Source: a virus. Taken from it: DNA of 47,808 nt. The translations under genes were made by a program, and so were the position numbers. Positions within the stretch are counted from its first letter, which is position 1. Each line of letters starts with the position of its first letter. The stretch covers positions 1 through 47,808 of the IMG/VR virus record IMGVR_UViG_3300047667_000757; one strand, given 5' to 3'. The notes beneath the pieces were generated by a model that worked only from the letters and a program-made list of their open reading frames with translations, had not been told where the DNA came from and ran no database searches. Below, one piece after another: positions 143 through 24,708 of the stretch.

Positions 143-145
143 ATA

Positions 146-2659: not shown

Positions 2660-2705
2660 TTTGCTTCCCTCCAAGGGATAATTTACAGCCACAGGCTGCA
2701 TTTAG

Positions 2706-6057: not shown

Positions 6058-6179
6058 CGTCACAGCCTTATATAATTTTCTTTATTATATCATTAATAGC
6101 TAAATAAATTAAACTTCGCTTGTAATAGTGCCAATCATGCCTTATATTAATGCCAATGATGACAAATAAAGGGGTTTAT

Positions 6180-6341
6180 ATGAATGTTTTGACACGAAAG
6201 ATTAGAAACAAGGGTTACAAGCTAACTGAGTTTTGCGATGCCAACCTAATATCACTTAGGAGCTATCGCAGATACGAAAAAGAAAACAATGCTAATCATG
6301 CAATGCTTAATCGTTTAATCAATGAATTGGAGAATAAATAA
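6180..6341 (+). CDS. Small putative DNA-binding protein (53 aa), version A
   Basis: A 53-residue basic protein, similar to the ORF at 46719-46883 over its C-terminal two-thirds (SYRRYEKE, NANHAMLNRLINELENK). The pattern resembles a truncated helix-turn-helix of the small phage-regulator type; this is inference. ATG 6180 has AAGGGG six bases upstream, so I prefer it to the ATG at 6150. It opens a plus-strand island lying antisense within the leftward head operon, and its stop overlaps the next start. Confidence 0.55.
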   Translation: MNVLTRKIRNKGYKLTEFCDANLISLRSYRRYEKENNANHAMLNRLINELENK

Positions 6342-6526
6342 TGACATCATTAAAAGCAGCACATGAAAAAACAGTAATGGACAAATTAACAATAAGCGTA
6401 AGTGTTACAGAGCTAGAAATATTTAAAGATTTAATTAAAATCTGTACAGATTTTTACTTAGACATGCCTGAAGATATGCGTATTAAATATGATGAGTTGG
6501 AAGATAAAATTAAGGAGAATAAATAA
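6341..6526 (+). CDS. Hypothetical protein (61 aa)
   Basis: A 61-residue ORF starting in a TAATG overlap with the previous gene, with GGAGAATAA as ribosome site. It is acidic and helical, probably an alpha-helical dimer (ELEIFKDLIKIC, DELEDKIKENK). It has no counterpart in haplotype B. Its stop overlaps the next start in the same way. Function unknown. Confidence 0.55.
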   Translation: MTSLKAAHEKTVMDKLTISVSVTELEIFKDLIKICTDFYLDMPEDMRIKYDELEDKIKENK

Positions 6527-6999
6527 TGAAAACAGTGATCGACATGGTTAATGAGCTTCAAGGCGAATGGCACAAAAGCAAAGATCAATTGTATGCTTGT
6601 GACAAAGGGGTGATTACTAACTATGATAATTTTATGCTCGCAGTAGCGGAATGCGAAACTAATTTTGGTAAGTGTGAACAGAGTTATAGTGATTATAAGT
6701 CTGAATATCATTATGGATATAGTAACCAAAGACTTATTGACATACAAATAGCAATGAGCAAACCACCAGTGTACACGCAAGAAATGGTTGCTAACGGTGT
6801 CTTACCTAGTATGGGTATGGATTGCTTATCAAAAAAATCCCATCAAGATGATAGTTACTTTAACAAGAGTTACATTAACGGTTACAGTCGAGATGGTAAA
6901 TGGTTAATATTTACCGACTACTTAGGTAATATAGAATCACACAATATCAGTAATGGAGTTTATGACTTCAAGCCACTAACAGTAGGGGATAAAGCATGA
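6526..6999 (+). CDS. Hypothetical protein with a domain shared with 15369-15950
   Basis: A 157-residue protein of unknown function. Its C-terminal half repeats the pattern of the protein at 15369-15950: YTQEM, then N-x-VLPS-x-G, then a tyrosine/glycine-rich stretch with W and GN, then FKPLTV at the end. I infer a common small beta-rich domain used in two unrelated operons of this phage. It is absent from haplotype B. Translationally coupled to its neighbours by TAATG and a four-base overlap. Confidence 0.6.
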   Translation: MKTVIDMVNELQGEWHKSKDQLYACDKGVITNYDNFMLAVAECETNFGKCEQSYSDYKSEYHYGYSNQRLIDIQIAMSKPPVYTQEMVANGVLPSMGMDCLSKKSHQDDSYFNKSYINGYSRDGKWLIFTDYLGNIESHNISNGVYDFKPLTVGDKA

Positions 7000-7184
7000 A
7001 CTATCAAAACATAGCAATAATAGTATTTGTATCAATACTGGCATTTGTAGTTATCCGTGGGCTAATCTGCTGGTACTTTAAAATTAATGAGCGTATAGCA
7101 TTACAACATAAATCATTAGTTAATCAGAAGCGTATGATTGACCAGTTAACGCAGTTGAACATTAATATTAAAGGGGTAACTTAA
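6996..7184 (+). CDS. Small membrane-anchored protein (62 aa), version A
   Basis: 62 residues with one strongly hydrophobic N-terminal segment (about residues 5-25, IAIIVFVSILAFVVIRGLI) followed by a charged helical tail (RIALQHKSLVNQKRMIDQLT). This is the layout of a single-pass inner-membrane protein with a cytoplasmic or periplasmic coiled coil. It is nearly identical to the ORF at 46880-47068, the only island gene strongly kept in both haplotypes. Its 3' end overlaps the terminase stop on the other strand by four bases. Function unknown. Confidence 0.65.
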   Translation: MNYQNIAIIVFVSILAFVVIRGLICWYFKINERIALQHKSLVNQKRMIDQLTQLNINIKGVT

Positions 7185-8566
7185 CCATCAATATTTAACC
7201 TTCCACTTTGCCTCTTAACTAAATGAGGACACGCACCCATGATGAAGCTATCAGCTAAATCATGGGATTTCTCAATCCTCTTTTTAACTTCTTTCTTTGA
7301 CTCAACCATATCAAGACCACGTTTAGAATAATCTGCCCTTGGTGCTGATAGCTCGCTTTTTAATTCTTCCAAGCCTTTTAAGTCCGATGATATGCTAATC
7401 AATTGACTGATATCATATTTCATGCCCTTTGTAACAGCGTTAAATGTATTCCTCATTCTGTCTGCAACATCACGCCACGCTTGAGCTTTTAGGTTCTCAA
7501 ATTTCTTCTTGTTTGTTATTTTCGGTGAATACTCCCGGGTAGGATTAAATACTTCAGCAGCAGCGTTAAACTTAGAGTAATTTTTATAACCTTTACCCTT
7601 TAGTATTGAGCCAACGCCCGCGCCCACGCCAATTGAATCATACGATAATATACCGCCCGAATCGCCAAGGTGTTTATATGCCCTTACTGATGAGCGCTCT
7701 AATTCGTCTTCGCCCGCTTTCCATGCGTCCATTGTGATTGCTACAGCACCATTGAATAACGTTACACAATTTCTATCAGCACCGCTATCCGCAACATCGT
7801 AACCAGCACAAATAGCACCAAATAAATCTAACTGTAATTTTTCATGAGCATCAACACAAGCGTTAACCCATGAGCGTTTGATAATTGATTGGTCGTCATC
7901 TGCGTAAGGTATGCCATTGTATACATGGTCCGCTAACTCGTAATCCTCTTCAAATTCTTCTGCAATGTCACGTAATGCTGATTCACTTAGGAATTGATTT
8001 TCATCGTAGTTAATCTTGCGAACCAATGCACCTTTAGGTGGAGCCTCTACCAATCTCTGCCATGAGTAATCCGATACTATTTGACCGTTCATTGTAAACC
8101 ACATTTCAGCGCCATCATTACGCATGATAGTTGGCCTGATAGTAGTAAACATTTTCTTAGTTAAGCTCTGGCTTTCCTCATTCCACCAAACCGTTGCACC
8201 CTCGAATGATTTAATCTCCTCTATGTTTCTGGCAATACCGTAAAATTTAAATTGGGATCCGTTAGTTTTGTGCTCGATAGAGTTAGCGTAAATATTAAAG
8301 TTAGCTTCCAAACCAAAATATACAATCTTATCTTTAAGCAATGTATAAACAGAATCTTCAATCTTGTTTTGATACATGCGAGTACATAAGAATAATTCTT
8401 TATGATGATTAGCGCGAGCGATTGCCATTCCTGCCGCATCATGTGATTTAGACGACATTCTACCGCCATGCAATACGCGCATACTAACAGGGGTTCCATC
8501 AGGTAATTTACGGGTTTTCCAGAATGGCTTTAATGCGGGGTTTAACGTAGCTTTAGTAGAAGTCAT
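7181..8566 (-). CDS. terL: Terminase large subunit (PBSX/Terminase_3 type)
   Basis: A 461-residue DNA-packaging motor. The N-terminal ATPase has a Walker A-like GGRMSSKS at about residues 34-41 and a Walker B ATVWWNEE near 124-131. The C-terminal RNase H-like nuclease shows GYDVADSGADRN near 245, YDSIGVGAG, and a late HDLADSF with an acidic residue. It cuts concatemeric DNA and pumps it through the portal. The stop end (7181-7424) belongs to haplotype A. From 7425 onward the sequence is shared, and the B version finishes at 47441-47808. Its start overlaps the end of the small-subunit gene. Confidence 0.93.
   Translation of the reverse strand: MTSTKATLNPALKPFWKTRKLPDGTPVSMRVLHGGRMSSKSHDAAGMAIARANHHKELFLCTRMYQNKIEDSVYTLLKDKIVYFGLEANFNIYANSIEHKTNGSQFKFYGIARNIEEIKSFEGATVWWNEESQSLTKKMFTTIRPTIMRNDGAEMWFTMNGQIVSDYSWQRLVEAPPKGALVRKINYDENQFLSESALRDIAEEFEEDYELADHVYNGIPYADDDQSIIKRSWVNACVDAHEKLQLDLFGAICAGYDVADSGADRNCVTLFNGAVAITMDAWKAGEDELERSSVRAYKHLGDSGGILSYDSIGVGAGVGSILKGKGYKNYSKFNAAAEVFNPTREYSPKITNKKKFENLKAQAWRDVADRMRNTFNAVTKGMKYDISQLISISSDLKGLEELKSELSAPRADYSKRGLDMVESKKEVKKRIEKSHDLADSFIMGACPHLVKRQSGRLNIDG
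7425..7551. repeat. 127-bp exact match to the window's right end
   Basis: These 127 bases are identical to 47682-47808. The base just before the match differs (G at 7424, A at 47681), and sequence beyond it is similar but diverged. It lies inside terL. Read as the point where two head-module haplotypes merge into common sequence and where the genome circle closes. Confidence 0.95.
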
Positions 8567-13988: not shown

Positions 13989-14179
13989 TCGCCATTCTCC
14001 TTGATATCTTCAAGCTCGCTAATCATACGCTGTAGCATATCTTGAAATTGATAAGCTTCTGTTAAAATTTCCTCGTCAATGTTTCTGTGTGCATTTAAAA
14101 GAATGCTAATAGAGGCATCACACGCCGCCGATAAAACTGCATTGGGCGCATCAAGTGGTATGTTTTTTTTATCAATCAT
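13985..14179 (-). CDS. Hypothetical protein (64 aa)
   Basis: 64 residues, acidic and helical (PNAVLSAACDASISILLNAH, then a Glu-rich coil). Four-base overlaps with both neighbours show tight translational coupling within the recombination operon. No family recognised. Confidence 0.55.
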   Translation of the reverse strand: MIDKKNIPLDAPNAVLSAACDASISILLNAHRNIDEEILTEAYQFQDMLQRMISELEDIKENGE

Positions 14180-14427
14180 GACATCATTTCCTGTATTGTT
14201 TTTATGTAAAGCTCACGTAGTTGCATCTGAACACCATCATTAATTAACGTATCTTCTGTAAGCTGCTTTAATGACTCGACTTCTATTTTGCTTGTAACGT
14301 CACATAACTCACATAAATCACCGCCAATATAAATGCAGTGATCTTCTATTAACATCCATAACACTTCATTAGCGCTTAATTGCTCTGGTTCATCTGCGTG
14401 AATTGCTATCTGATTCTCTATACTCAT
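14176..14427 (-). CDS. Hypothetical acidic protein (83 aa)
   Basis: 83 residues, strongly acidic, with two closely spaced cysteines (GGDLCELCDV). Preceded by the leader ACAAGTAAGGATTAAATA, closely similar to that of the next gene upstream. The charge suggests a DNA-mimic or binding partner role only as speculation. Confidence 0.5.
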   Translation of the reverse strand: MSIENQIAIHADEPEQLSANEVLWMLIEDHCIYIGGDLCELCDVTSKIEVESLKQLTEDTLINDGVQMQLRELYIKTIQEMMS

Positions 14428-14444
14428 TATTTAATCCTTACTTG

Positions 14445-14693
14445 TTACCAATTTTCATTATCGTCGTCGTCGTCATCGCTTTCCGTGTTGTTCTTAGTCA
14501 CAAACAATCCACCACCGCTTCTTTCTATAATATTGTAAACATCGCCGCTCAAACAAAAAACCCTGGCTTCGTTAAATGGAAACATTGAAACGGAAGCAAT
14601 AGTCTCAGCAAACATACAGATATTTGCTTGCATAATTGCGTCTAACTCTCTGCACGGTCCTGCATTTACTATTGATTGTATTATATTGCTCAT
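14445..14693 (-). CDS. Hypothetical protein (82 aa), first gene of leftward early operon
   Basis: 82 residues ending in an acidic run (SDDDDDDNENW). The leader ACAAGTAAGGATTTACAGA provides the ribosome site. It lies immediately downstream of a near-consensus leftward promoter (14726-14754), so it should be expressed early and strongly. Such acidic early proteins often bind host proteins, but that is not shown here. Confidence 0.55.
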   Translation of the reverse strand: MSNIIQSIVNAGPCRELDAIMQANICMFAETIASVSMFPFNEARVFCLSGDVYNIIERSGGGLFVTKNNTESDDDDDDNENW

Positions 14694-14725
14694 TCTGTAA
14701 ATCCTTACTTGTTGGTGATGAACAA

Positions 14726-14754
14726 ATAGTAGCGCGTATAAATATAACCGTCAA
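14726..14754 (-). promoter_or_regulatory. Leftward sigma-70 promoter
   Basis: On the minus strand TTGACG, 17-base spacer, TACTAT. An AGCG-TTTT-CGCT inverted repeat borders the -35 box (14754-14765) and could be an operator. It drives the 14693-to-left gene series. Confidence 0.7.
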
Positions 14755-14775
14755 GCGTTTTCGCTAATTATATTA

Positions 14776-14805
14776 TTTGCAAAATACGTACACCTATAGT
14801 ATTAT
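14776..14805 (+). promoter_or_regulatory. Rightward sigma-70 promoter
   Basis: TTTGCA, 18-base spacer, TATTAT, ending 30 bases before the ATG at 14835. Divergent to the leftward promoter, about 20 bases away, forming a compact control region. Confidence 0.55.
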
Positions 14806-14834
14806 TAACCAATCCAAACAAATAAGGCGTTAAA

Positions 14835-15041
14835 ATGACCATAAGCAAAGAGTTAAAAAGCATTGTAAGAGATGCAGCATTGGCAGCGGGTATTGACGGG
14901 GTAATGTCGTTAGACAAGCTTTGTGTTGACTTGACTTACGCAAGAGTATCAAGAGTATGGCATGGCAATACATCTGCTAAATTTTGCGATGTAGAGTATG
15001 TTTTAAATATTTTAAATGTAAAAGTTAGATGGAGTAAGTAA
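14835..15041 (+). CDS. Putative helix-turn-helix regulator (68 aa)
   Basis: 68 residues with a Cro-like size and layout: GVMSLDKLCVDLTYARVSRVWHGNTS resembles a helix-turn-helix, followed by CDVEYVLNILNVKVRW. As first gene right of the divergent promoters it is the natural candidate to repress one or both. Assignment as regulator rests on size, predicted fold and position. Confidence 0.55.
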   Translation: MTISKELKSIVRDAALAAGIDGVMSLDKLCVDLTYARVSRVWHGNTSAKFCDVEYVLNILNVKVRWSK

Positions 15042-15042
15042 G

Positions 15043-15372
15043 ATGATTAAATTTGATTTAGAAAAAGCATTGGCTGGCGAAAAAGTTATCATAAGAAGTA
15101 AAGCAGAAGTTGAGCAATTAAAGACATTTGAAGTTGAGGGTCGCAAAATAATTTGCGGTGTTATAGGTGAAACTTTTCACTATGATATTCAAAAAAGTGA
15201 CTTATTCATGGCACCTAAAAAGCTAAGTGGTTTTGTTAATTTATACGACAATGGCGATGTTGGCCCGATTATTCATAACTCAAAAAAAGAAGCAATGTGT
15301 GGCCGAAACCTTATAAAAAATCGTATTGCATGCATTGATTTATCACAATTTGAAGAGGGTCACGGACTATGA
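15043..15372 (+). CDS. Hypothetical protein (109 aa)
   Basis: 109 residues beginning one base after the regulator stop. The N-terminus (FDLEKALAGEKVIIRS) is similar to short phage proteins with a beta-strand repeat that often precede FKPLT-type domain genes; this is family memory, not proof. The C-terminus overlaps the next start by four bases. Confidence 0.55.
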   Translation: MIKFDLEKALAGEKVIIRSKAEVEQLKTFEVEGRKIICGVIGETFHYDIQKSDLFMAPKKLSGFVNLYDNGDVGPIIHNSKKEAMCGRNLIKNRIACIDLSQFEEGHGL

Positions 15373-15950
15373 GCGCACTATCAATAGCACATGAAGTTTT
15401 AAATGGCGATTTAAATAACACTATACGACACAGTGCTTGTTATGGTTTTTTGTATTTGTGTGATAGTGGGTTTTATTTTACTTTAAATAAAACATCTGCT
15501 AGCAACCTTACTTACATATCAACAGTAGAGGAGTTCAATAATTTTAAAGGTGATAATGTGACGGATAATATTTATACAAAAGAAATGGCTGATAACGATG
15601 TATTACCTAGTGTGGGTGAGCTTGTGCAAATGCGTAGGGATTATGGTGATGACTATGAGTTTTATAATGGGCGATTAGTTCACGTAAAGGCTGGTGTGAT
15701 ATGGTTTGACGATGATAGGTATGGTGGTAATTTACATTCACAAAACGAGGTTACATTCAAACCACTAACACCACCTGTAAAATTAGATGACGGTAAGGCT
15801 TATCAGTTTGATTATATAAATAAACCTTGTGATGGTACTTATCACGGCTTATTTAACGCAAAGCTTAACCGATTTATTATAAAAGATGGTTTTGTTGCTG
15901 CTGATTACACTTTAAACATTCAACCACTAACAGTAGAGGCTAAATCATGA
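15369..15950 (+). CDS. Hypothetical protein with two FKPLT/QPLT-ended modules
   Basis: 193 residues of unknown function. Around residues 72-135 it shares with 6526-6999 the string YTKEM, N-x-VLPS-x-G, Tyr/Gly-rich centre, W-x-DDDRYGGN and FKPLT. The remaining C-terminal segment ends in IQPLTVEAKS, suggesting a second, shorter module. Likely an all-beta protein. It overlaps both neighbours by four bases. Confidence 0.6.
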   Translation: MSALSIAHEVLNGDLNNTIRHSACYGFLYLCDSGFYFTLNKTSASNLTYISTVEEFNNFKGDNVTDNIYTKEMADNDVLPSVGELVQMRRDYGDDYEFYNGRLVHVKAGVIWFDDDRYGGNLHSQNEVTFKPLTPPVKLDDGKAYQFDYINKPCDGTYHGLFNAKLNRFIIKDGFVAADYTLNIQPLTVEAKS

Positions 15951-16174
15951 GCATTAACAGCGAATCAAATACAGAACTAGCTAATCATCGCAAGCTTGTA
16001 AGCGATCAAAAAGACTCAAGCAATGATTTATCAATACCTAATACAGACAATAAAGATAAGCGATCACAGTCAGCGTTAGCAGTTAGAATTTTAAAATCAA
16101 ACATGGAAGTTAACAACACTATGATGAGCGTAGATGATGAGCGCTACTTTACTGAGTTAATGAAAGGTGGGTGA
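15947..16174 (+). CDS. Hypothetical disordered protein (75 aa)
   Basis: 75 residues rich in Ser, Asn and Asp, probably largely disordered in the first half, with a short helix (ALAVRILKSNMEVNN) after it. Last gene of the short rightward operon, followed by an intrinsic terminator. Function unknown. Confidence 0.5.
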   Translation: MSINSESNTELANHRKLVSDQKDSSNDLSIPNTDNKDKRSQSALAVRILKSNMEVNNTMMSVDDERYFTELMKGG

Positions 16175-16204
16175 TTTAATTACTGAAGTTATATATAGAT
16201 TACT

Positions 16205-16226
16205 AAGCCGCTGATAGCGGTTTTTT
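16205..16226 (+). terminator. Intrinsic terminator of rightward operon
   Basis: CCGCT-GAT-AGCGG stem extended by A/T pairs and followed by six T residues, 31 bases after the last stop. Confidence 0.75.
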
Positions 16227-16245
16227 ATTGCGCTAAATTCGACGC

Positions 16246-16273
16246 AAAAAAAAGACCTTTCGTTAAAAAGGCC
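16246..16273 (-). terminator. Intrinsic terminator of leftward early operon
   Basis: Read on the minus strand: GGCCTTT-TTAACG-AAAGGTC, with one G-U pair, followed by eight T residues. It faces the previous terminator, isolating two convergent operons. Confidence 0.7.
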
Positions 16274-16338
16274 AAGGAGAATGAAAATTGTCGGGTTTTC
16301 CGTCCTGTGTTTATTGTATCAGATAAACTTATTAATGC

Positions 16339-16623
16339 TTAGTATAATCCTTCGCTGTACAACTCGTCACCGCCACCACCGTTTCTTGCTTGGTCAAATG
16401 GCTGCCCGTTATTTTTCACAATAACCATGGCTTCAGTTCTTGTTCTAAATTCTCCACAGCTATTAATAAACCCCTGTTGCTCTCCATGCTCTTTACGCAA
16501 TCCACGAAATTTATCAACACCCAAAATATCAACTTGCTTGTGCATAATGCCATCCCAATGGCGAGCGCCACACAAAATCAAATCACCATACTTATTTGCT
16601 GCGCAAACTATAAATTCACCCAT
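16339..16623 (-). CDS. Hypothetical protein (94 aa)
   Basis: 94 residues, with the ordered stretch IVCAANKYGDLILCGARHWD, GFINSCGEFRTRTEAM and a Gly/Asp-rich end. It looks like a conserved phage protein of unknown role. Last gene of the leftward early operon. Its leader AATAAGGAATATAATAATG is repeated before the next two genes upstream. Confidence 0.6.
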   Translation of the reverse strand: MGEFIVCAANKYGDLILCGARHWDGIMHKQVDILGVDKFRGLRKEHGEQQGFINSCGEFRTRTEAMVIVKNNGQPFDQARNGGGGDELYSEGLY

Positions 16624-16649
16624 TATTATATTCCTTATTGTTTATAGTA

Positions 16650-17087
16650 TTAGATAAATTTACCCTTTTCTATGTCGTATACGTGAACCTCACCACCGCT
16701 TGCTGAGTCTTTTGTTATAGCATATTCAACAGCCGTCTCAGTGCTAGCGTGAAAATCTAAAGCGGCTAAAGCAAATTCACCGCCCGAACCTATTGACTCA
16801 TTATATTCATTTTCAGTTATAGAGCAGTAATGATCGTTAAACGCAACCAAATAACACTTTTTATTTTTTACTAATAACGCGCAGCAATCTGGTTTCACGC
16901 CTGGCTTATCGTTGTGTTCAAGTTCCATTATTTGTGATTCGTCAGATTTAGCACCAGCAAAAAACCACATGCCTTTCTTGTTAGATTTAAACTTTTCAAT
17001 TGTGTCACTAACAATTAATGTGCCGGCTGTTAACCGACTATCACAAGCTATTTGCTTTTCTTTATGATTATAAATCACTGTAGTCAT
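16650..17087 (-). CDS. HslV/proteasome-like Ntn hydrolase
   Basis: 145 residues matching the HslV/proteasome beta fold throughout. Met-Thr-Thr at the N-terminus places a candidate nucleophile Thr directly after the initiator Met, as in HslV. ACDSRLTAG gives the conserved Asp, IEKF the conserved Lys, FAGAKSDE matches FAGGTADA of HslV, and SIGSGGEFALAAL matches the AIGSGG segment. It ends GGEVHVYDIE. It could be an unregulated peptidase acting on host or phage proteins; no HslU-like ATPase gene is present in the window. Activity is inferred from motif retention. Confidence 0.85.
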   Translation of the reverse strand: MTTVIYNHKEKQIACDSRLTAGTLIVSDTIEKFKSNKKGMWFFAGAKSDESQIMELEHNDKPGVKPDCCALLVKNKKCYLVAFNDHYCSITENEYNESIGSGGEFALAALDFHASTETAVEYAITKDSASGGEVHVYDIEKGKFI

Positions 17088-17098
17088 TATTATATTCC

Positions 17099-17398
17099 TT
17101 ATTGTTTATTTAGGTTTAAATACTCAGGACAATCAATGTAAATTTCAACATGAACACCGCCCATACCTTCCTTCCCTTCCGGTACTGGTTCACCCTCACC
17201 ACCGAACAAGCATTTAAACTCACCATTTTCAATCACGCCAAAAGCGTAAGAAGGCCAATCATTAACATCATCATAAATCTCTTTGATATGAGTAAAGCAA
17301 AACTTACTGTTTTTTAACTCATGGATAACATGATTATAATAAGATAATTCTTTTATTTCTTTTAATTCTCTAGTTGCAACCCTTAACATTACTTGCAT
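17099..17398 (-). CDS. Hypothetical protein (99 aa)
   Basis: 99 residues: a helical N-terminus, an aromatic centre (DWPSYAFGVIENGEFKCLFGG) and a Gly/Glu-rich loop before a last beta-type segment. It shares its translational leader with its two downstream neighbours. No family recognised. Confidence 0.55.
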   Translation of the reverse strand: MQVMLRVATRELKEIKELSYYNHVIHELKNSKFCFTHIKEIYDDVNDWPSYAFGVIENGEFKCLFGGEGEPVPEGKEGMGGVHVEIYIDCPEYLNLNKQ

Positions 17399-17424
17399 TA
17401 TTATATTCCTTATTGTTTATAGTG

Positions 17425-17646
17425 CTATAGTTTGTTATTGCTTGCATTAATATGATTACAATCATCATAACAAGATGCAGTATTACCCGTAATACCCTGT
17501 CTTCTGTTGCTAAATACTTTTGCATAACCCACGTAAACCACCGCCGCCCTATCTGTTTTTGCATCGTGATAATGCTTCCCATGAGCCTGTGTATTACCAA
17601 CATAAACCCAGGACTTTAATATTTCTTGAATTGTTAATTCACTCAT
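17425..17646 (-). CDS. Hypothetical protein (73 aa)
   Basis: 73 residues, His- and Tyr-rich (GNTQAHGKHYHDAKTD) with a C-terminal CYDDC pair. The leader GGAGATAGTAAGTAATG is shared with genes starting at 18006 and 19904. Its start overlaps the previous stop by one base. Function unknown; the His/Cys content hints at metal binding. Confidence 0.5.
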   Translation of the reverse strand: MSELTIQEILKSWVYVGNTQAHGKHYHDAKTDRAAVVYVGYAKVFSNRRQGITGNTASCYDDCNHINASNNKL

Positions 17647-17831
17647 TACTTACTATCTCCATGCTTATTAATTGTTTTAGCGTACTCAGTGCAGGCTACT
17701 ATTTTTATCAAACTAACTTTGCAGCGGCCAACAACTTTCATTTGATCAAAAGGTAGATGATCACACAATCTTAACGAGTTAACGCAATTAGCACACATAC
17801 CGCCCTTGGGTGCAAATTTTAAATCAGCCAT
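17646..17831 (-). CDS. Hypothetical Cys-rich protein (61 aa)
   Basis: About 61 residues with five cysteines: CANC, then a single Cys before DHLPF, then C at GRC and a late VAC. The spacing suggests a small zinc-binding fold. ATG 17831 with GAGG about eight bases upstream is preferred over the in-frame ATG at 17855. Its start lies inside the end of the preceding gene (eight-base overlap). Confidence 0.55.
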   Translation of the reverse strand: MADLKFAPKGGMCANCVNSLRLCDHLPFDQMKVVGRCKVSLIKIVACTEYAKTINKHGDSK

Positions 17832-18006
17832 TGTTACCGCCTCTTTGTTTATCATTTAAATGCCTACCATTAAGCTCACTTTTTGCTAATAATTTTGTTT
17901 CGTCATCGTGAATATTATTGTTGATTACCGTTTTTAACACACTATCTGACATTACAATAAGCTGCCCAACAGATAAGCCTACCAGGTTACTATACATTTC
18001 TCTCAT
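17824..18006 (-). CDS. Hypothetical protein (60 aa)
   Basis: 60 residues, helical in the first half (SVGQLIVMSDSVLKTVI), basic at the end. Preceded by the repeated AGATAGTAAGTAATG leader. Function unknown. Confidence 0.5.
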   Translation of the reverse strand: MREMYSNLVGLSVGQLIVMSDSVLKTVINNNIHDDETKLLAKSELNGRHLNDKQRGGNNG

Positions 18007-18017
18007 TACTTACTATC

Positions 18018-18185
18018 TCATTGGTTAAACTCTTCAAGCAAGCTGTTTTCTAGCTCTTCAAGCAATTTGCTTTCTAGTTCTTCAATGCGACTAGTTAACA
18101 TCACTTTTGAGAACTCAATCCATAACCCTTTAGGTGAGTTCTTATAATAAAGCACATTGTTTATTGTTCTTTCTGCGTAATACAT
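18018..18185 (-). CDS. Hypothetical coiled-coil protein (55 aa)
   Basis: 55 residues whose C-terminal 25 form a leucine/glutamate heptad-like repeat (RIEELESKLLEELENSLLEE), probably a short coiled coil. The leader ACATAAGGATTTACAAACATG provides a standard ribosome site. No family recognised. Confidence 0.5.
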   Translation of the reverse strand: MYYAERTINNVLYYKNSPKGLWIEFSKVMLTSRIEELESKLLEELENSLLEEFNQ

Positions 18186-18207
18186 GTTTGTAAATCCTTA
18201 TGTGTTG

Positions 18208-18339
18208 TTATAGATGTTTATTTAGTTGCCTATTTAACAATACATTTTCTTGGCATTTTTTATGACAATAAATACCTTTTTTAACATACAAAACCCTTTG
18301 CCAAACCCATATTTTTTTATTGCAACATATACATTTCAT
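18208..18339 (-). CDS. Small zinc-finger-like protein (43 aa)
   Basis: 43 residues with an N-terminal CICC and a second pair YCHKKC about 20 residues later, the layout of a single treble-clef or ribbon finger, within a basic protein. Such mini-fingers may bind nucleic acid or host proteins. A ribosome site (AAGGGTAATAAA) precedes ATG 18339. Confidence 0.5.
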   Translation of the reverse strand: MKCICCNKKIWVWQRVLYVKKGIYCHKKCQENVLLNRQLNKHL

Positions 18340-18369
18340 TTTATTACCCTTGTTAATGCGCTAGGTTAG

Positions 18370-18576
18370 TTAATTGTTTTCAATGCAATTAGCATTAGAT
18401 TCATGAAGCAAAAACAACTTAGCGTAAAAATCTTCTACCCATTTTTTCCATTCAGCATAGCGCTTATCATGTTCAACAACACCAAAATCAGCACAAGAAT
18501 CTTTACCTGGGGCCATCATACCTGTTTCTTTATAAAATAATTCTGCCATGTATTCAAATCTATCATTTCCGTTCAT
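18370..18576 (-). CDS. Hypothetical protein (68 aa)
   Basis: About 68 residues, acidic and aromatic (DKRYAEWKKWVEDFYAKLFLLHES). The leader AAATAAAGAGAATGAATATG carries two ATGs; the second, at 18576, is correctly spaced from GAGA. The same leader precedes two other small genes. Function unknown. Confidence 0.5.
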   Translation of the reverse strand: MNGNDRFEYMAELFYKETGMMAPGKDSCADFGVVEHDKRYAEWKKWVEDFYAKLFLLHESNANCIENN

Positions 18577-18603
18577 ATTCATTCTCTTTATTTGTTGATT
18601 AAT

Positions 18604-18621
18604 GCGCTAGGCTAGTAGCGC
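18604..18621. repeat. GCGCTA/TAGCGC hairpin, copy 2
   Basis: GCGCTA-GGCTAG-TAGCGC in the intergenic leader between two small leftward genes. Followed by TTGGTGTTTGGTTA, which is also kept at 20110. Confidence 0.65.
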
Positions 18622-18636
18622 TTGGTGTTTGGTTAT

Positions 18637-18927
18637 TTATTCGTACCAATCTTTTTTTGGTGGTATTTTATTGTTATCTAACAAAGTCTCACTACTCATT
18701 CCTAAGTTTGATAAATCCTCATCACTCATGCCTATATCATTAAGCACGGCATCATCAAGGTGATTCATAAGTAAATTTTTAAGTAACGACTGAGCACGAT
18801 CTAATTCTTCAAACGTATCATTAACACTACATGCTTGCACTTGGTAAGCCTTGCCTTCATACGTTATTTCTCTAGCAAAATCTTCTAAACCGATTACTAG
18901 TAAGGTCATCACATTACTTTCTTGCAT
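18637..18927 (-). CDS. Hypothetical acidic protein (96 aa)
   Basis: About 96 residues, Asp/Glu/Leu-rich and helical, with a run of IGMSDEDLSNLGMSSETLL that contains a duplicated GMS motif. ATG 18927 is chosen over 18933 for ribosome-site spacing. It is the first gene downstream of the structured RNA region and may be read from the same promoter. Confidence 0.5.
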   Translation of the reverse strand: MQESNVMTLLVIGLEDFAREITYEGKAYQVQACSVNDTFEELDRAQSLLKNLLMNHLDDAVLNDIGMSDEDLSNLGMSSETLLDNNKIPPKKDWYE

Positions 18928-18964
18928 ATTCATTCTCTTTATTTGTTGGTTTATTTTAAATATA

Positions 18965-19578
18965 GTAAGTCTAATGACCGTTACTGCAAGGATGGAAGCC
19001 TTAACAATATTCTCTTATTCAATTATATGTAACGGTAATCAAGCAACTGTTCACAATCCTTGTTGGTAGTCCACACCATATCCCCTTGCAGAAAGCTTGT
19101 TTATCTCGGTCAAAGTCATCACATATAAAGATATTAAAAAATTGCTATTTAAAGTTATAGCTTAACTATAGGGATTTTTACAAGATACCAATTAACTTGG
19201 CAGTGTTAGTATGTATAGTGAAATGAGCTAACAATAAAAAACTGATCAATTTCTTTTATTTAATACCCGAAGGGCATGTAGCTCACTTCACTTATACATA
19301 CTTAGATGCTTGAAAGGAATTTGTGCGTGCAATCTCGTAACCTGCCAGCGTTCTACCCTTGAATGAACCATATCGGCATATAGCGGATTTGGCGGTACTA
19401 CTGGGTTCCAACAAATTACACACACAAAAAAGGGTACTTAAGGAACATGTAACCTCTGTTGAAGAGGGGCGAATCGTTAGAGGGAAAACCCACCAAAGAT
19501 TACACGTTTCTTAAATACCCTCTAACAATTTCTTTCTAAGCAGTCTTCACACTGCTATCAATTAAAGTTCAATTGACT
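18965..19578 (-). ncRNA. Candidate large structured non-coding RNA
   Basis: About 610 bases without a credible gene but with dense long-range complementarity. In transcript order (minus strand): a 6-bp hairpin at 19538-19555; a 27-position stem (about 19515-19489 with 19458-19432; 22 Watson-Crick pairs, 4 G-U, 1 mismatch); a 9-bp GTTAGAGGG/CCCTCTAAC pairing that interleaves with it; a 14-bp stem TTTGTGTGTGTAAT/ATTGCACGCACAAA; a 23-bp stem at 19303-19279 with 19230-19208; CTGCAAGG/CCTTGCAG; and ACCGTTAC/GTAACGGT. G-U pairs occur on the minus strand and become A-C on the plus strand, supporting leftward transcription. The size recalls ornate phage RNAs such as GOLLD or ROOL, but I cannot assign a class. 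Exact ends are estimates. Confidence 0.65.
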
Positions 19579-19584
19579 TGTTCT

Positions 19585-19612
19585 ATTATACGCTGTTATG
19601 CCTGTTTATCAA
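19585..19612 (-). promoter_or_regulatory. Strong leftward promoter for the structured RNA
   Basis: TTGATA, 16-base spacer, perfect TATAAT on the minus strand, inside the last codons of the 19596-19904 gene. Transcription would start near 19578, just where the folded region begins. Confidence 0.65.
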
Positions 19613-19904
19613 GTTTAGATATGTATTCATTAACTCTTTTACTAACCTGTCTTTCTATTTCATCCTCGGTAGCTGTTAGTATTCTATAAACCAGTTGATC
19701 AACACATGGTTTAAACGTGTTATATGTCATTGGCTGTGAGTTGCTGTGTACACCCCGATCGCCATGGTATTCTTCAATCCATCCACTAGCGAATGCTTCA
19801 AAATTTACTTGACTATTTAAAAGGTTAAAATCTTTATGGTTCGTGTAATAATAAAAAGAAGATCCAACCGCTTCCACTAGATTGCTGTGATATTTATTAC
19901 TCAT
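19596..19904 (-). CDS. Hypothetical protein (102 aa)
   Basis: 102 residues, mixed alpha/beta, aromatic N-terminal half (GSSFYYYTNHKDF, ASGWIEEYHGD) and a helical charged C-terminus (EDEIERQVSKRVNEYISKL). Preceded by the GGAGATAGTAAGTAATG leader, and its start overlaps the previous stop. The promoter of the structured RNA is embedded in its 3' end. No family recognised. Confidence 0.55.
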   Translation of the reverse strand: MSNKYHSNLVEAVGSSFYYYTNHKDFNLLNSQVNFEAFASGWIEEYHGDRGVHSNSQPMTYNTFKPCVDQLVYRILTATEDEIERQVSKRVNEYISKLDKQA

Positions 19905-20083
19905 TACTTACTATCTCCTTGGTTAATGTGTATCTCATCAAATACCGCTTGCCCTTGCGCTATTAATTCAACTTTATGTAAAGCATCTTTTACTGGTATA
20001 GCCACAAAATCAATACCGTAAAGTTTCATCACCTCAACGCAATCTAAATTCTTACGCATTTCTACGGGGCTGCATTTATTCAT
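19904..20083 (-). CDS. Hypothetical protein (59 aa)
   Basis: 59 residues, mixed, with SPVEMRKNLDCVEVMKLYGI and a hydrophobic centre (IDFVAIPVKDALHKVELIA). ATG 20083 follows the leader CATAAGGATTTAGAGA. Stop and next start overlap as TAATG. Function unknown. Confidence 0.5.
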   Translation of the reverse strand: MNKCSPVEMRKNLDCVEVMKLYGIDFVAIPVKDALHKVELIAQGQAVFDEIHINQGDSK

Positions 20084-20109
20084 TCTCTAAATCCTTATGT
20101 GTTGTTGAT

Positions 20110-20127
20110 GCGCTAGGTTAGTAGCGC
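20110..20127. repeat. GCGCTA/TAGCGC hairpin, copy 3
   Basis: GCGCTA-GGTTAG-TAGCGC followed by TTGGTGTTTGGTTA, nearly the same 35-base unit as at 18604. A partial copy (GCGCTAGGTTAGT) starts at 18357. Confidence 0.65.
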
Positions 20128-20157
20128 TTGGTGTTTGGTTAATTAAGTTCAAGGCAG

Positions 20158-20361
20158 TTAATAAAGATCAGCTTTTAGCTTTTCAAGCAACTCCTTGGCT
20201 AATAAAACATCACCTAAATTATTAATAGTTATTTCATTTAATAAATCAAAAGCATTACAAACAACATCTTCTATGGTGCCGATCAATTCAGTTAGCTCTT
20301 CAATCATTTCTTCTTCGCTTCCACCATTACATATAGCCTCTAGTATTTTTTGCTTATGCAT
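20158..20361 (-). CDS. Hypothetical acidic protein (67 aa)
   Basis: About 67 residues, acidic and leucine-rich, helical (EEEMIEELTELIGTIEDVV, then LLAKELLEKLKADLY). ATG 20361 is preferred over 20367 because of the GAGAATGAATATG leader. First gene after a promoter downstream of the helicase gene. Function unknown. Confidence 0.5.
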   Translation of the reverse strand: MHKQKILEAICNGGSEEEMIEELTELIGTIEDVVCNAFDLLNEITINNLGDVLLAKELLEKLKADLY

Positions 20362-20401
20362 ATTCATTCTCTTTATTTGTTGGTTGTTATTAGCTGAGAT
20401 T

Positions 20402-20430
20402 ACTATAAATCAAATATACACACCTGTAAA
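20402..20430 (-). promoter_or_regulatory. Leftward promoter downstream of dnaB
   Basis: TTTACA, 17-base spacer, TATAGT on the minus strand, in the gap between the helicase stop and the next gene. Confidence 0.55.
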
Positions 20431-20444
20431 CACATTTGTATATA

Positions 20445-21677
20445 TTAATAAATCATATTCGTTAAATTATCAAACACCATTGTCGGAGCTGTCCATTGAA
20501 CATTAACAAGCCCTGTTCCACCGTGGCGATTCTTCTTAAAGTTAACTTCACAAATATTTCCATCTGGACTATCTTTGTTATAAACATTATCTCTATATAG
20601 CGTTAAAATAATATCCGCTTCTTGTTCAATTGTTCCACTGTCTTTAATATCTCCCATCTCAGGGCGCTTATCGGTTCTCTCTTCAACTTTACGACTAACT
20701 TGAGCCAATGCAACAACTGGTATATTTAACTCCCTTGCTAGCTCTTTGAGGCGCATTGCAATATCACCAACTTGTTCATGCTTTGGTAGTTTTGGGTTTT
20801 CATGTTTAATGCGTTGTAAGTAATCTAGATAAATAGCTGTGCAACCGTGGTCGTGCTTAACCTGTCTTGCAACTGACTCTATCTCACTCATAAACGGCCC
20901 TGACTTGTCATAAATCCAACCGCCATGATTATTTATTGATTCTATTGCGCTACCAATTCTTGCAAAATCTTCATCGTTAATATCACCAGTTCTGATTTTA
21001 TGGTTTGGCACATTACCAACAATACTAAATAATCTTTGTGCAGCTTGAACCCTGGACATCTCAGTACTAAAAATTAATGGCGCGTTTTTGTTTGCTTCAG
21101 CAATATTTAACATAAATGCCGTTTTACCCATGGCAGGACGTGCAGCAACAATAATTAAATCTGAGTTATGCAGCCCTCCCATAACCTTGTCAACATCAAA
21201 AAGGCCTGTCGGCACAGTTAGGGAGTCACCATCCATAACCTTCTCTATTTCATCAACTGCTGCTGCTGCTGCTTCTTCAAAAGAATGTAAATATTTCTTT
21301 TCTGTTGAATCAAGTGCCATGAGGGATTTTATAAAAGTATTAACATTTGTGTCTGCGCTGTTTTGCATTTCAGCGCCAATATCTTTTATTGCTTTTACTC
21401 GCCAGTTTTCTTTTATTTTCTTAACATGATCTTTGGCAGAAAATGAACCTATAGTTTCCTTGGCCATAATCCCCAAGATAGTAAACCAATCATCTGATTT
21501 TGGTAGAGCTTCAGCAACTGTAATTAAATCAGGTGTCATTTTTCGCATAGTTAAATCTGTTATAGATTCCCAGATTTGTTTATGCGAAAAATTAGTAAAA
21601 TGCTTTTCTTCTAATCCAGTAGTTGAGGGATCAAGTTGACCAATTAAAACTAGGCCGATTATATTTCTTTCTATCAT
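20445..21677 (-). CDS. dnaB: Replicative DNA helicase, DnaB family
   Basis: 410 residues. N-terminal DnaB-type helical domain (about 1-110), then the RecA-like motor: Walker A in AARPAMGKTAFML (about 192-200), Walker B-type AIYLDYLQRI, then ALAQVSRKVEERTDKRPEMGDIKDSGTIEQEADIILTLYR, the DnaB signature with the glutamine sensor and arginine-finger region. It unwinds the replication fork. It is slightly shorter than cellular DnaB. Its start overlaps the Rep stop by four bases, so initiator and helicase are coupled. Confidence 0.95.
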   Translation of the reverse strand: MIERNIIGLVLIGQLDPSTTGLEEKHFTNFSHKQIWESITDLTMRKMTPDLITVAEALPKSDDWFTILGIMAKETIGSFSAKDHVKKIKENWRVKAIKDIGAEMQNSADTNVNTFIKSLMALDSTEKKYLHSFEEAAAAAVDEIEKVMDGDSLTVPTGLFDVDKVMGGLHNSDLIIVAARPAMGKTAFMLNIAEANKNAPLIFSTEMSRVQAAQRLFSIVGNVPNHKIRTGDINDEDFARIGSAIESINNHGGWIYDKSGPFMSEIESVARQVKHDHGCTAIYLDYLQRIKHENPKLPKHEQVGDIAMRLKELARELNIPVVALAQVSRKVEERTDKRPEMGDIKDSGTIEQEADIILTLYRDNVYNKDSPDGNICEVNFKKNRHGGTGLVNVQWTAPTMVFDNLTNMIY

Positions 21678-22399
21678 TGTGAAAAACCTTTTGGTTTATT
21701 TGTCGATGACAATGGTTTTGCATGAAGCAAGTAACCTTGAAACTTACTAGCTTGAAATAATGTACTCGGTCTTAAATACTGAGCCATTACTTTGTCATTT
21801 AACCATTCGTTAGCTTTTGATTTAATCACTAACTTTAAGTCATCTGCCGAGTGACCGTCATTTAGTCTAGCTGATATGTTTTCAATATGTGATTTTGTCG
21901 TGTGTTTATATTTTGATTGTAGAGTAATATTTAAAAAATCTATGATTTCTTTTACTCTGATATCCTCTTTCTTCTTACTTCTTTTTCTTACTTCTTCTTC
22001 TTCTTCTAGAGGGACAAAAACCGACAAACTCGGACTTACTCCGACCGATTGATTTGTAACGGTTTTTATTCCATTTCGCCTAACTGCCTTTGCTGTAAAG
22101 TCATCACACCTGGAAGCTAGCTTTAAACAAAAAACATGGCCATTTTCAGCATTTAACAAACCTAAATCTATAAATGACTTCATCATCTGTTCAACTTTTT
22201 GCGGTGTTGATCCTGTGTTCCTCGCTATAATTCTGCAATCATGCTCAAGTTCAAAAGTGAGGTTGTCACCATTAACCCCTTGCGCTATTAACTCTATGCA
22301 ATACCAATATAAACCGTAACCTTCCAACCCATAATCTAGCATTACCTCTTGGAGTTTTGCGTCCATATTTGCATCTGTGTCATGTTTGAACCATTTAAT
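21674..22399 (-). CDS. Replication initiator/helicase loader, apparent AUU start
   Basis: About 241 residues. N-terminus of the Lin1244/DUF4373 winged-helix type (KWFKHDTDANMDAKL...GLEGYGLYWYCIELIAQ), an acidic/basic linker, and a C-terminal Phg_2220_C domain (VKEIIDFLN, ADDLKLVIKSKANEWLND, YLRPSTLF, KFQGYL). This architecture loads DnaB at the origin. The first in-frame ATG (22366) would cut off the conserved WFKHD start. The only sensible upstream start is ATT at 22397-22399, eight bases after AGGAG. That predicts a rare AUU initiation codon, as in infC, and low or IF3-sensitive synthesis. Confidence 0.8.
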   Translation of the reverse strand: MKWFKHDTDANMDAKLQEVMLDYGLEGYGLYWYCIELIAQGVNGDNLTFELEHDCRIIARNTGSTPQKVEQMMKSFIDLGLLNAENGHVFCLKLASRCDDFTAKAVRRNGIKTVTNQSVGVSPSLSVFVPLEEEEEVRKRSKKKEDIRVKEIIDFLNITLQSKYKHTTKSHIENISARLNDGHSADDLKLVIKSKANEWLNDKVMAQYLRPSTLFQASKFQGYLLHAKPLSSTNKPKGFSQ

Positions 22400-22460
22400 G
22401 TTATAATCTCCTAGCTGATATTAATAAATTGCGCTTTCTTGCTGGTTAGCGCGTTTTTAT

Positions 22461-22658
22461 TTACTTACTTCTAGCGTCATTAATCAAAACCAAATCAATA
22501 GCCTTATCAACATCTCTTGCAGCCATTGCTTGTATCTGTGCTAAACCTAACTTCATTGCAGCTCTAGATACTTTACTGGTATCAATACCAACAATTTCTA
22601 CTAAATCTTTAATTTTCAAAACCTGCGTATCACTAAATCTTACCGTTAATGTTTTCAT
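22461..22658 (-). CDS. Ribbon-helix-helix transcriptional regulator (65 aa)
   Basis: 65 residues with an Arc/CopG-like N-terminus: a beta strand (TLTVRFSDTQV), helix (KIKDLVEIVG), turn and helix (KVSRAAMKLGLAQI). It should bind DNA as a dimer of dimers. It is transcribed from a promoter whose spacer contains TACAT-N6-ATGTA, a likely autoregulatory operator, and divergent to the rightward operon. First gene of the replication operon. Confidence 0.75.
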   Translation of the reverse strand: MKTLTVRFSDTQVLKIKDLVEIVGIDTSKVSRAAMKLGLAQIQAMAARDVDKAIDLVLINDARSK

Positions 22659-22689
22659 TTTGTTATTCCATTTTTAAAAGACAACAGAA

Positions 22690-22717
22690 TTATTACATAA
22701 TGCAATGTACTTGTAAA
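22690..22717 (-). promoter_or_regulatory. Leftward promoter with embedded operator
   Basis: TTTACA, 16-base spacer, TAATAA on the minus strand. TACAT-N6-ATGTA (22694-22709) lies within it. The half-sites match the palindrome at 24763-24774. Confidence 0.55.
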
Positions 22718-22738
22718 TACATTTAAAACACAAAAGTG

Positions 22739-22767
22739 TTGACAATAAAATACTTATGCATTAAATT
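22739..22767 (+). promoter_or_regulatory. Rightward sigma-70 promoter
   Basis: Perfect TTGACA, 17-base spacer, TAAATT, 37 bases before the ATG at 22805. Divergent to the regulator promoter. Confidence 0.7.
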
Positions 22768-22804
22768 AGGCGCATCAAATGGCAATTAAACAAGGGCAAA
22801 TAAA

Positions 22805-22993
22805 ATGAATATATGGCAAGAGTTCGCAATGTTAAACGAAATGACTCCAAAGCAATTTGAAGATGAGATTATATTTACTGCACAAGCGGTGATGGCTATG
22901 AAATTAAACGAAACTGGTGAAGATGAATTAAAAATAGTTGCAGGTCAACATGATGGCGTTTATCAATTGAATTTTAAGCGCATAGATAAATAA
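22805..22993 (+). CDS. Hypothetical protein (62 aa)
   Basis: 62 residues, acidic, with a helical N-terminus (MLNEMTPKQFEDEIIFTAQA) and a beta-type end (LKIVAGQHDGVYQLNFKRI). First gene of the rightward middle operon. Ribosome site AAGGGCAAATAAA. Function unknown. Confidence 0.55.
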   Translation: MNIWQEFAMLNEMTPKQFEDEIIFTAQAVMAMKLNETGEDELKIVAGQHDGVYQLNFKRIDK

Positions 22994-23004
22994 GGATAAG
23001 TAAG

Positions 23005-23205
23005 ATGAAATTTATACCGATGCAGGTATGCGACTTAACTAAAACTGATGCTACAACAGTTGTAGCGTATAGAGATAATAGAATTATCAGCGAAGACAGT
23101 ATTATAAATAGTTTTCCATTGCACATACTTACATCTTGCCAATTAGGCCGGGCAAACGAATCAACCAAGTTAATTTTAAATAATATATTTAATAAGCAAG
23201 GATAA
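23005..23205 (+). CDS. Hypothetical protein (66 aa)
   Basis: 66 residues with no family I recognise; contains VCDLTKTDATTVVAYRDN and a C-terminal helical stretch. Preceded by TAAGGATAAGTAAG, a good ribosome site. Part of the rightward operon. Confidence 0.5.
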   Translation: MKFIPMQVCDLTKTDATTVVAYRDNRIISEDSIINSFPLHILTSCQLGRANESTKLILNNIFNKQG

Positions 23206-23209
23206 TAAA

Positions 23210-23794
23210 ATGTTAAATACAGAAGTAATAACTCCGTTACCGTTTGCTCGCGGATTTTGGTTGATAGCAAGTGAGCGCGTATTGATTGAACCGACACTAA
23301 ACAACGCGGGGCGCAAGAAAGGCAAGGGTGGTAAGAATGTTAAGGTTAGCCATCCAAGGCCGGCCCAAAGCTCAATAGATGCTATGTTGCTAGCCATAAA
23401 AAATGGCAATGGCGTAACAAGCGAAGATTTAGGCGAAATAATGGGATTGAGTCTTGGTCATATTTTGAAATACTTAAAAGTGTTAAAGAAAGAATGTGCT
23501 ATTGAAATATCAAAATACAACAGGCGCAAAAGCCATGGTACTTGGTTTTATTATTTAGCCGGTGAATTAACAGAAGAACAAAAAGAGGTTAGCAAGCCAA
23601 TGGTAACAGTATTTTCTACGATTAAACAAAATCCAGGTTTACCAAGTTACGAGATAAGAAAGCTGGCCAGGGTGTCACAATATGTTATGCAAAGTGCAGT
23701 TGATAAATTAATAATTGCAAAAAAAATTACAAAAGAAGTTTGGCCGACTAATAAAGGGGGTCACACTATTTACTCATATACAGCGGTTAAATGA
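23210..23794 (+). CDS. Putative DNA-binding protein with two winged-helix domains
   Basis: 194 residues: a short N-terminal segment, a very basic glycine-rich patch (GRKKGKGGKNVKV, about 36-48) and two successive winged-helix-like units. The first shows GVTSEDLGEIMGLSLGHILKYLKVL, the second GLPSYEIRKLARVSQYVMQSAVDKLI, each with a following wing ending in tyrosine. Probably a transcriptional regulator or replication accessory protein. Stop overlaps the upstream extension of the methyltransferase frame. Confidence 0.65.
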   Translation: MLNTEVITPLPFARGFWLIASERVLIEPTLNNAGRKKGKGGKNVKVSHPRPAQSSIDAMLLAIKNGNGVTSEDLGEIMGLSLGHILKYLKVLKKECAIEISKYNRRKSHGTWFYYLAGELTEEQKEVSKPMVTVFSTIKQNPGLPSYEIRKLARVSQYVMQSAVDKLIIAKKITKEVWPTNKGGHTIYSYTAVK

Positions 23795-23814
23795 TTATAA
23801 ATAAGGATGTAAAG

Positions 23815-24708
23815 ATGAATGTTTTAAGTTTGTTTAATGGTATGAGTTTTGGAAAAATGGCTTTAGAGTCATTAGATATTAAAGTAAACAAGTATTACTC
23901 CAGTGAAATTGATAAATACGCCAACCAGGCAACGCAAGCGTTATTTCCTGATACGATACAGTTAGGCGATATTACTAACTGGCGTGATTGGGATATTGAT
24001 TGGGCAAGTATTGATTTGGTAACAGGCGGCTTTCCTTGTCAGGCTTGGTCAATGGCAGGTAAGCAGTTAGGCGATAAAGACGAGCGCGGCATGTTGTTTT
24101 GGGCGATGCTAGATATTATGAAACACGTTAAATACCACAATCCCAATGCTGATTTTTTAATTGAAAACGTGAAGATGAAAAAAGAGTTTGAGCAATATAT
24201 TACAACTCACACCGAAAACGCTTTAGGAGAAGTACATAAAATATTGATTAACAGCGCATTAGTATCTGCTCAGAATCGCAATAGATATTACTGGACTAGT
24301 TTTGAGGTTACTCAGCCAGAGGATTGTTTTATTGATTGCTCAGAGGTTATTGATAAAAATGAGCAAAATCCAAACAAACAGGGTTGGCAAAAGTGGTGGG
24401 ATAAAAACGGAGAGTTCCAGCTTAAGAAAAGATACTCATGCATCCTTAACGATGTGGAAAAAGGGATTACACAAACAGCTAGACAAGTATCATCCTGGAA
24501 TGGGTGCGTTGTTCGAAACAACGACCAGTCACTAAGATTTTTCACACCGAAGGAGGCGTTTAGGCTTCAAACAGCCCCAGAGCATCATATCGATACATTA
24601 TTAAGTGCTGGTATTAGTAACACTCAACTATACAAGATGTGCGGTAACGGGTGGACGATGGAAGTTATCAAGCACATTTTAAAATCATCAAACTTAATTA
24701 AAAAATAA
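23815..24708 (+). CDS. Orphan DNA (cytosine-5) methyltransferase
   Basis: About 297 residues. Family motifs in order: I (LSLFNGMSFGKMAL, start), IV with catalytic Cys (GGFPCQAWSMAG), VI (LIENVKM), VIII (QNRNRYYW) and X near the end (YKMCGNGWTMEVIKHIL). It methylates cytosine at C5 in a specific site, probably shielding phage DNA from host restriction. No endonuclease partner is adjacent. ATG 23815 after AAGGATGTAAAG is the likely start, not the ATG at 23791. The recognition domain is short. Confidence 0.92.
   Translation: MNVLSLFNGMSFGKMALESLDIKVNKYYSSEIDKYANQATQALFPDTIQLGDITNWRDWDIDWASIDLVTGGFPCQAWSMAGKQLGDKDERGMLFWAMLDIMKHVKYHNPNADFLIENVKMKKEFEQYITTHTENALGEVHKILINSALVSAQNRNRYYWTSFEVTQPEDCFIDCSEVIDKNEQNPNKQGWQKWWDKNGEFQLKKRYSCILNDVEKGITQTARQVSSWNGCVVRNNDQSLRFFTPKEAFRLQTAPEHHIDTLLSAGISNTQLYKMCGNGWTMEVIKHILKSSNLIKK

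Follow-up and report, generated by a model that had tools for sequence, protein, structure and literature searches.

A candidate family of structured phage RNAs with exchangeable pseudoknotted domains around a variable linker

To our knowledge, GOLLD and ROOL are the only well-described classes of large ornate phage RNAs; both are RNA-only cages of unknown function. The GOLLD cage is a 14-mer RNA nanocage. GOLLD combines a conserved region with a variable linker able to hold tRNAs, contains pseudoknots and is known from marine samples, ROOL (a 659-nt example has been described) has pseudoknots and a variable linker between conserved parts, and the cryo-EM structures of both exhibit RNA-only cages with the linker inside (PMC12286853). 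A long non-coding RNA (ncRNA), of approximately 800 nt, is found in the Vibrio phage ICP1, where it is among the most abundant phage transcripts, a precedent for how highly such RNAs can rank (PMC7567579; PMC9040626).

The DNA analyzed here (the window) is a stretch of 47,808 nt, the IMG/VR virus record IMGVR_UViG_3300047667_000757. An initial annotation of its letters had proposed, at 18934-19612, a gene-free stretch encoding on the minus strand an RNA of GOLLD- or ROOL-like size and complexity behind a near-perfect promoter. We place the ncRNA candidate on the minus strand at 19612-18949 (approximately 600 nt). The promoter end of the proposed extent thus holds, but the other end does not, as the conserved RNA stops near 18949; the transcript would end near the conserved ...CTTATTATC, and no terminator is visible at this 3' end. 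The flanking features are:

19585-19612, minus strand: sigma-70 promoter TTGATA-16-TATAAT, from the exact sequence, its position conserved in 25/25 members
18637-18933, minus strand: next gene, 98 aa, with no PHROGs family; start codon at 18933

The promoter has exactly the sequence first reported, and with a sigma-70 score of 11/12 it tops the 41 sigma-70-like sites in 14000-24000. The number of such sites is at chance level (44 expected), but the promoter is nevertheless credible because of its conserved position. In all 25 members tested, hairpin P0 is preceded by a strong sigma-70 promoter whose -10 box lies 6-29 nt away from it, and the scores averaged 11.1, as compared to 8.1 (sd 1.3) in random windows of the same contigs. 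The stretch is regarded as non-coding since the minus strand holds no ORF of at least 60 aa between 18934 and 19595, and since gaps in the homolog alignments are mostly not multiples of three (198/252). No conserved protein emerged across it, and no annotated gene covers a conserved match in any annotated phage record. These observations support the stretch being a ncRNA with its own promoter as predicted transcript, which the host sigma-70 polymerase would transcribe.

The 5' part was recovered from Vibrio phage NF by sensitive blastn searches against phage genomes; for the 3' part, these searches returned Pseudoalteromonas phages HS2 and BS5 as well as approximately 65 nearly identical phages of Vibrio (K series, 14E30). 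Queries with the relatives added Vibrio phages 1.054.O, 1.131.O, 1.132.O and 1.189, and pattern scans of IMG/VR with conserved motifs added dozens; homologs occur at approximately 50 IMG/VR loci. Both domains are treated as one element because many loci hold them in identical order. Covariance models of the 3' domain (R1) and the 5' domain (R2), each built from 12 sequences, gave 31 and 29 matches, respectively, in 80 sources and none in decoy loci; the E-values of these home-made models are rough. Two loci that were member-like by pattern (L014, L016) were rejected, and L253, L254, L256, L257, L261, L262, L288, L291, L299 and L300 are look-alikes of the pattern and non-members. No prophage copies turned up among 395 genomes from the order around Neptunicella, which were searched with strict filters and no positive control. 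Genome contigs, scanned with a loose pattern, gave apparently chance matches only, and the single Alteromonadaceae locus read from it (L139) is protein-coding.

The succession of stems noticed at the outset was recovered as long inverted repeats of 31 nt (19431-19521), 14+10 nt (19208-19302) and 14 nt (19320-19428), with further repeats of 13, 11 and 11 nt in the stretch. The minus strand folds with -188.8 kcal/mol, as compared to -137.9 +/- 6.7 kcal/mol for shuffles (z -7.6), and the plus strand folds more weakly relative to its shuffles (z -5.6). Across the family, paired cells comprise 135 G-U and 8 A-C, which identifies the minus strand as the RNA strand and extends to the family an asymmetry that had been read from several imperfect pairs. 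The same asymmetry bears on whether the nested inverted repeats could instead serve as a recombination, packaging or replication site in the DNA, with transcription being incidental. Long inverted repeats are present and RNA copies lie at mosaic joints, as this explanation would have it, but a G-U excess is explicable only by an RNA strand, and the conserved upstream promoter, the pseudoknots and kissing loops described below, and two copies in one genome all speak for RNA; we regard a function at the DNA level as very improbable.

In the 5' domain the following elements were recognized:

19558-19577, minus strand: small extra 5' hairpin (GTCAATTGAAC TTT AATTGA), from sequence, seen in the window and L260
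19540-19555, minus strand: P0 hairpin GCAGT-GTGAAG-ACTGC, 3/5 pairs with changes on both sides
19544-19549, minus strand: P0 loop TGAAGA, kissing with TCTTCA at 19460-19465 (permutation test)
19532-19540, minus strand: 5' strand CTTaGAAAG of the long-range helix LR, partner 19309-19316 (family comparison)
19521-19531, minus strand: P1 5' strand AAATTGTTAGA, pseudoknot (pairing energy)
19499-19521, minus strand: P2 5' strand AGGGTATTTAAGAAACGTGTAAT (inverted repeat and covariation)
19491-19494, minus strand: P3 5' strand GGTG, facing CGCC/CACC, by eye in family alignments, uncounted
19472-19481, minus strand: P1 3' strand TCTAACGATT, within the P2 loop (pairing energy)
19453-19469, minus strand: P4 hairpin CCCCTCTTCAACAGAGG, bearing the kissing-loop partner (permutation test of the kissing loop)
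19431-19453, minus strand: P2 3' strand GTTACATGTTCCTTAAGTACCCT (covariation)
19426-19431, minus strand: U6 tract after P2, inside the LR-closed domain, resembling a terminator tail, absent in K30, L266 and L070
19309-19316, minus strand: LR 3' strand CTTTCAAG, closing the 5' domain (family comparison)

Hairpin P0 is the probable start of the conserved RNA. Throughout the 5' domain 98.8% of cells are paired, and the covariation count that covers P2 includes 12 pairs altered on both strands. The kissing-loop helix between P0 and P4 is kept in 25/27 members by means of 17 different sequence pairs, almost purely Watson-Crick, and 0/5000 permutations, uncorrected for relatedness of the members, paired as well. 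For P1, the helix crossing P2, the pairing energy is -11.3 kcal/mol with the cognate partner and -6.2 kcal/mol with swapped partners. LR (GAAAG/CTTTC) is mostly invariant, with compensatory variants in L268, L009 and L002. The 5' domain may be pictured as a rigid fold of the P0-P4 kissing loop and the P1/P2 pseudoknot, closed by LR. LR spans the U tract, and because of this pairing and the conserved 3' domain we reject the reading that P2 and U6 are an intrinsic terminator and the rest a read-through artefact.

The elements of the 3' domain are:

18949-19126, minus strand: 3' domain of type A, conserved (140 bits with model R1)
19118-19128, minus strand: Pa 5' strand TTATATGTGAT, partner 19023-19033, 8/9 modelled pairs changed on both sides
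19107-19112, minus strand: PK1 5' strand TGACCG, partner CGGTCA at 18975-18980 (0/2000 permutations)
19095-19105, minus strand: conserved GATAAACA and H2 5' strand CAAGC, partner GCTTG at 19040-19044 (covariation)
19084-19091, minus strand: PK2 5' strand CTGCAAGG, partner CCTTGCAG at 18984-18991 (0/2000 permutations)
19049-19078, minus strand: hairpin TGGTGTGGACTACCA and conserved CCAACAAGGATTGTGAAC (covariation analysis)
19023-19044, minus strand: H2 3' strand, conserved TGATTACC and Pa 3' strand GTTACATATAA (covariation analysis)
18975-18991, minus strand: 3' strands of PK2 and PK1 (CCTTGCAG...CGGTCA) (covariation and permutation)

Here 92.4% of cells pair, whereas shuffles reach 79.7% and slid controls no more than 37%; there are 103 compensatory cells (28 in shuffles), and 20/32 pairs have changes on both sides, a pair count that takes in PK1 and PK2, two helices absent from the model. 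With gaps allowed, the cognate partners of PK1 and of PK2 beat permuted ones, none of 2000 permutations being as good in either case, and although these permutations are blind to the relatedness of members, such a variety of compensated sequences appears hard to obtain otherwise. PK1, PK2, Pa and H2 form two interleaved sets, i.e. a double pseudoknot, and the 3' domain probably folds as a rigid unit around it. The initial annotation had suggested pseudoknots from interleaved pairs, and these pseudoknots are real, since covariation extends to helices that the models did not contain; in either conserved domain the homologs display strong covariation. Compensatory changes that preserve a secondary structure, in a non-coding stretch with its own promoter, characterize a large structured phage ncRNA, and in the predicted RNA a variable linker lies between two pseudoknotted domains.

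The linker, the most variable part of the RNA among members, contains in the window:

19320-19428, minus strand: P5 arm (TTTGTGTGTGTAAT / ATTGCACGCACAAA), inverted repeat, the tRNA slot in L099, L265 and L266
19208-19302, minus strand: linker hairpin AGTATGTATAAGTGAAGTGAGCTA...TAGCTCATTTCACTATACATACT, inverted repeat
19188-19200, minus strand: small hairpin CCAAGTTAATTGG, by eye; CCGAA...TCGG in relatives

Complete tRNA genes lie within the linker of three members (tRNA-Gly in L099, tRNA-His in L265 and tRNA-Leu in L266), and a tRNA T-arm-like sequence is found in the equivalent linker hairpin of L028, L265, L267, L270 and L274. In the window, P5 and a long hairpin of simple form take up the tRNA slot. 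The linker would thus carry hairpins, tRNA-like arms or whole tRNAs between the domains, and excision of a tRNA would separate both domains unless tertiary contacts hold them together.

The same 3' domain is preceded by a 5' domain of either type I, the type in the window, or type II. The type II sequence differs but its topology is equal, with a P1 strand before P2, pairing inside the P2 loop, followed by U6, and it shows covariation of its own in P1, P2 and an internal hairpin. K30 has a further 5'-domain variant, in which the U tract is missing, and the 3' domain occurs in at least three types. Judging from these combinations, 5' and 3' domains are exchangeable between phages. Besides type A, two 3' domain types, seen in L031, L259, L260 and L264 and in L020 and L028, share the type I 5' domain. 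In L013, the RNA sits at the joint between an HS2-like upstream flank (cf. L008, L009) and a BS5 downstream flank, and the 5' domain differs; this is phage mosaicism, with a break that falls within the RNA or next to it. Two copies of the RNA occur in a single phage genome. In L011, which is devoid of a 5' domain, a GIY-YIG/T5orf172-like gene at approximately 6300-6900 occupies its place, immediately ahead of what the RNA retains, its middle and 3' portions.

In K30, L031, L020, L096, L260 and L099 the RNA is directly followed by a nuclease-like gene, and in L011 such a gene precedes it. Together with the mosaic joints at the RNA (as in L013, between HS2-like and BS5-like flanks) and the two copies in one genome, they raise the possibility of a mobile element, in which the RNA and nuclease genes of GIY-YIG/T5orf172-like or HNH/AP2 type were spread jointly by homing, or in which the RNA is a HEARO-like guide or cofactor of the nuclease. 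However, an adjoining nuclease is missing from most members, among them the window, the neighboring nucleases are of different types (identities mostly read by eye), and domain types do not strictly follow the neighbor gene, which makes a mobile element distinctly unlikely.

The antitermination RNAs put (of HK022) and EAR are structured RNAs located just after a promoter and ahead of diverse operons, and put sites also occur twice per genome. The RNA described here shares the position directly behind a promoter and the diverse operons downstream. It might be a leader acting in cis, a large 5' UTR through which the operon behind it is controlled, for example by antitermination, with P2-U6 as a switchable terminator. 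The downstream gene is co-directional in 23/26 members (by longest ORF), which keeps this explanation alive, P2 plus U6 looks like an intrinsic terminator, none is visible at the 3' end, the next start codon is within approximately 20 nt of the RNA in the window and several members and also close in K30, and one phage matches put sites in carrying two copies. On the other hand, in all 14 members whose next start codon is at least 42 nt away from the RNA, the gap contains a second promoter, mostly with an extended -10, and all 14 score at least 11, as do 4% of random windows. The downstream genes are moreover unrelated, encoding a calcineurin-like phosphoesterase, HNH/AP2 and GIY-YIG-like nucleases, a methylase, virion-like and unknown proteins, where some names (mostly of nucleases) come from record annotation or reading by eye. 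Neither a consistent downstream class nor transcription solely through the RNA, as for a leader or riboswitch, was thus found. Furthermore, U6 is missing from K30, L266 and L070, LR pairs across the U tract, whole tRNAs lie inside the RNA, and the put/EAR RNAs are far smaller and have no tRNA inserts, a comparison that at the sequence level is limited to the Rfam scan. We consider a leader unlikely and favor an independent RNA because of the gap promoters, the unrelated downstream genes, the two copies in one genome and the convergent downstream gene of L011, the last being weaker evidence because L011 lacks the 5' domain.

In the vicinity of the next gene, a 29-nt identical repeat on the minus strand, containing AACAAATAAAGAGAATGAATATG, occurs at 18923-18951 and 20357-20385 and also near 18576-18603. 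Several small genes, among them the gene that immediately follows the RNA, have this repeat as their translation start region. A second repeat of approximately 70 nt (84%), at 18576-18639 and 20077-20145, has a GCGCTAGGYTAGTAGCGC hairpin between small genes.

A cmscan of the window RNA against Rfam 15 at curated cut-offs gave no match, be it to GOLLD, ROOL, a group I/II intron or another Rfam ribozyme, in agreement with the failure of the initial annotation to match GOLLD or ROOL. With three members and E-values up to 10, there were chance matches only and none to GOLLD (RF02032) or ROOL; 101 Lactobacillaceae and 14 control genomes yielded no GOLLD as positive control for the scan. No description of the family was found in open papers and a minority of preprints, and the predicted RNA family is thus new relative to Rfam 15 and open papers. 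The resemblance to GOLLD comprises a phage-borne RNA of hundreds of nt with a conserved region, pseudoknots, a marine setting and a variable linker accepting tRNAs, and that to ROOL a similar size, pseudoknots and a variable linker between conserved parts (PMC12286853). The likeness noted at the outset hence extends to the linker that sometimes holds a tRNA gene, albeit as an analogy and not as membership. Both flanking domains of the present family are conserved yet exchangeable, in contrast to GOLLD, the family has no Rfam match, and in either comparison a nanocage is known for the described RNA only. Because the GOLLD and ROOL models do not match, we file the RNA outside both, as a new family that may work alike.

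On balance, we find it somewhat probable that the stretch encodes an independent, trans-acting structured ncRNA of a new family with exchangeable domains, most likely working like GOLLD/ROOL. By analogy of architecture, the RNA would most likely act as an RNA-only scaffold, probably multimeric or a cage, that presents or encloses linker cargo during infection. Tentatively, and with more doubt, it may constitute a third, independent kind of phage RNA nanostructure, a modular RNA whose 5' and 3' pseudoknot domains phages swap in the manner of protein domains and whose homo-oligomers would, during infection, keep hold of tRNAs from the linker or of some other cargo. A further family with a tRNA-accepting linker, unrelated by Rfam models, suggests a recurring design repeatedly invented by phages. 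Its presence in cultured Vibrio and Pseudoalteromonas phages makes deletion, expression and structure directly testable, and RNA structure prediction should find a strong target in a family with such extreme covariation and with exchange of domains.

The long ncRNA of ICP1 is similar in belonging to a Vibrio phage and in occupying an ORF-less region of approximately 1 kb near lysis genes (PMC7567579; PMC9040626). This region of the abundant RNA, on the minus strand at 4097-5109 of L252 (ICP1), is matched by neither R1 nor R2, so that by these models it is no relative, and it has no family assigned. As regards the ends of the window, 1-7551 and 40107-47808 carry duplicates, diverged to a DNA identity of 81-94% and a portal protein identity of 77%, of a module comprising portal, head morphogenesis, scaffold and major head genes, one copy of which has an additional HNH endonuclease gene (2706-3338); they represent either a real duplication or an assembly joining two strains.
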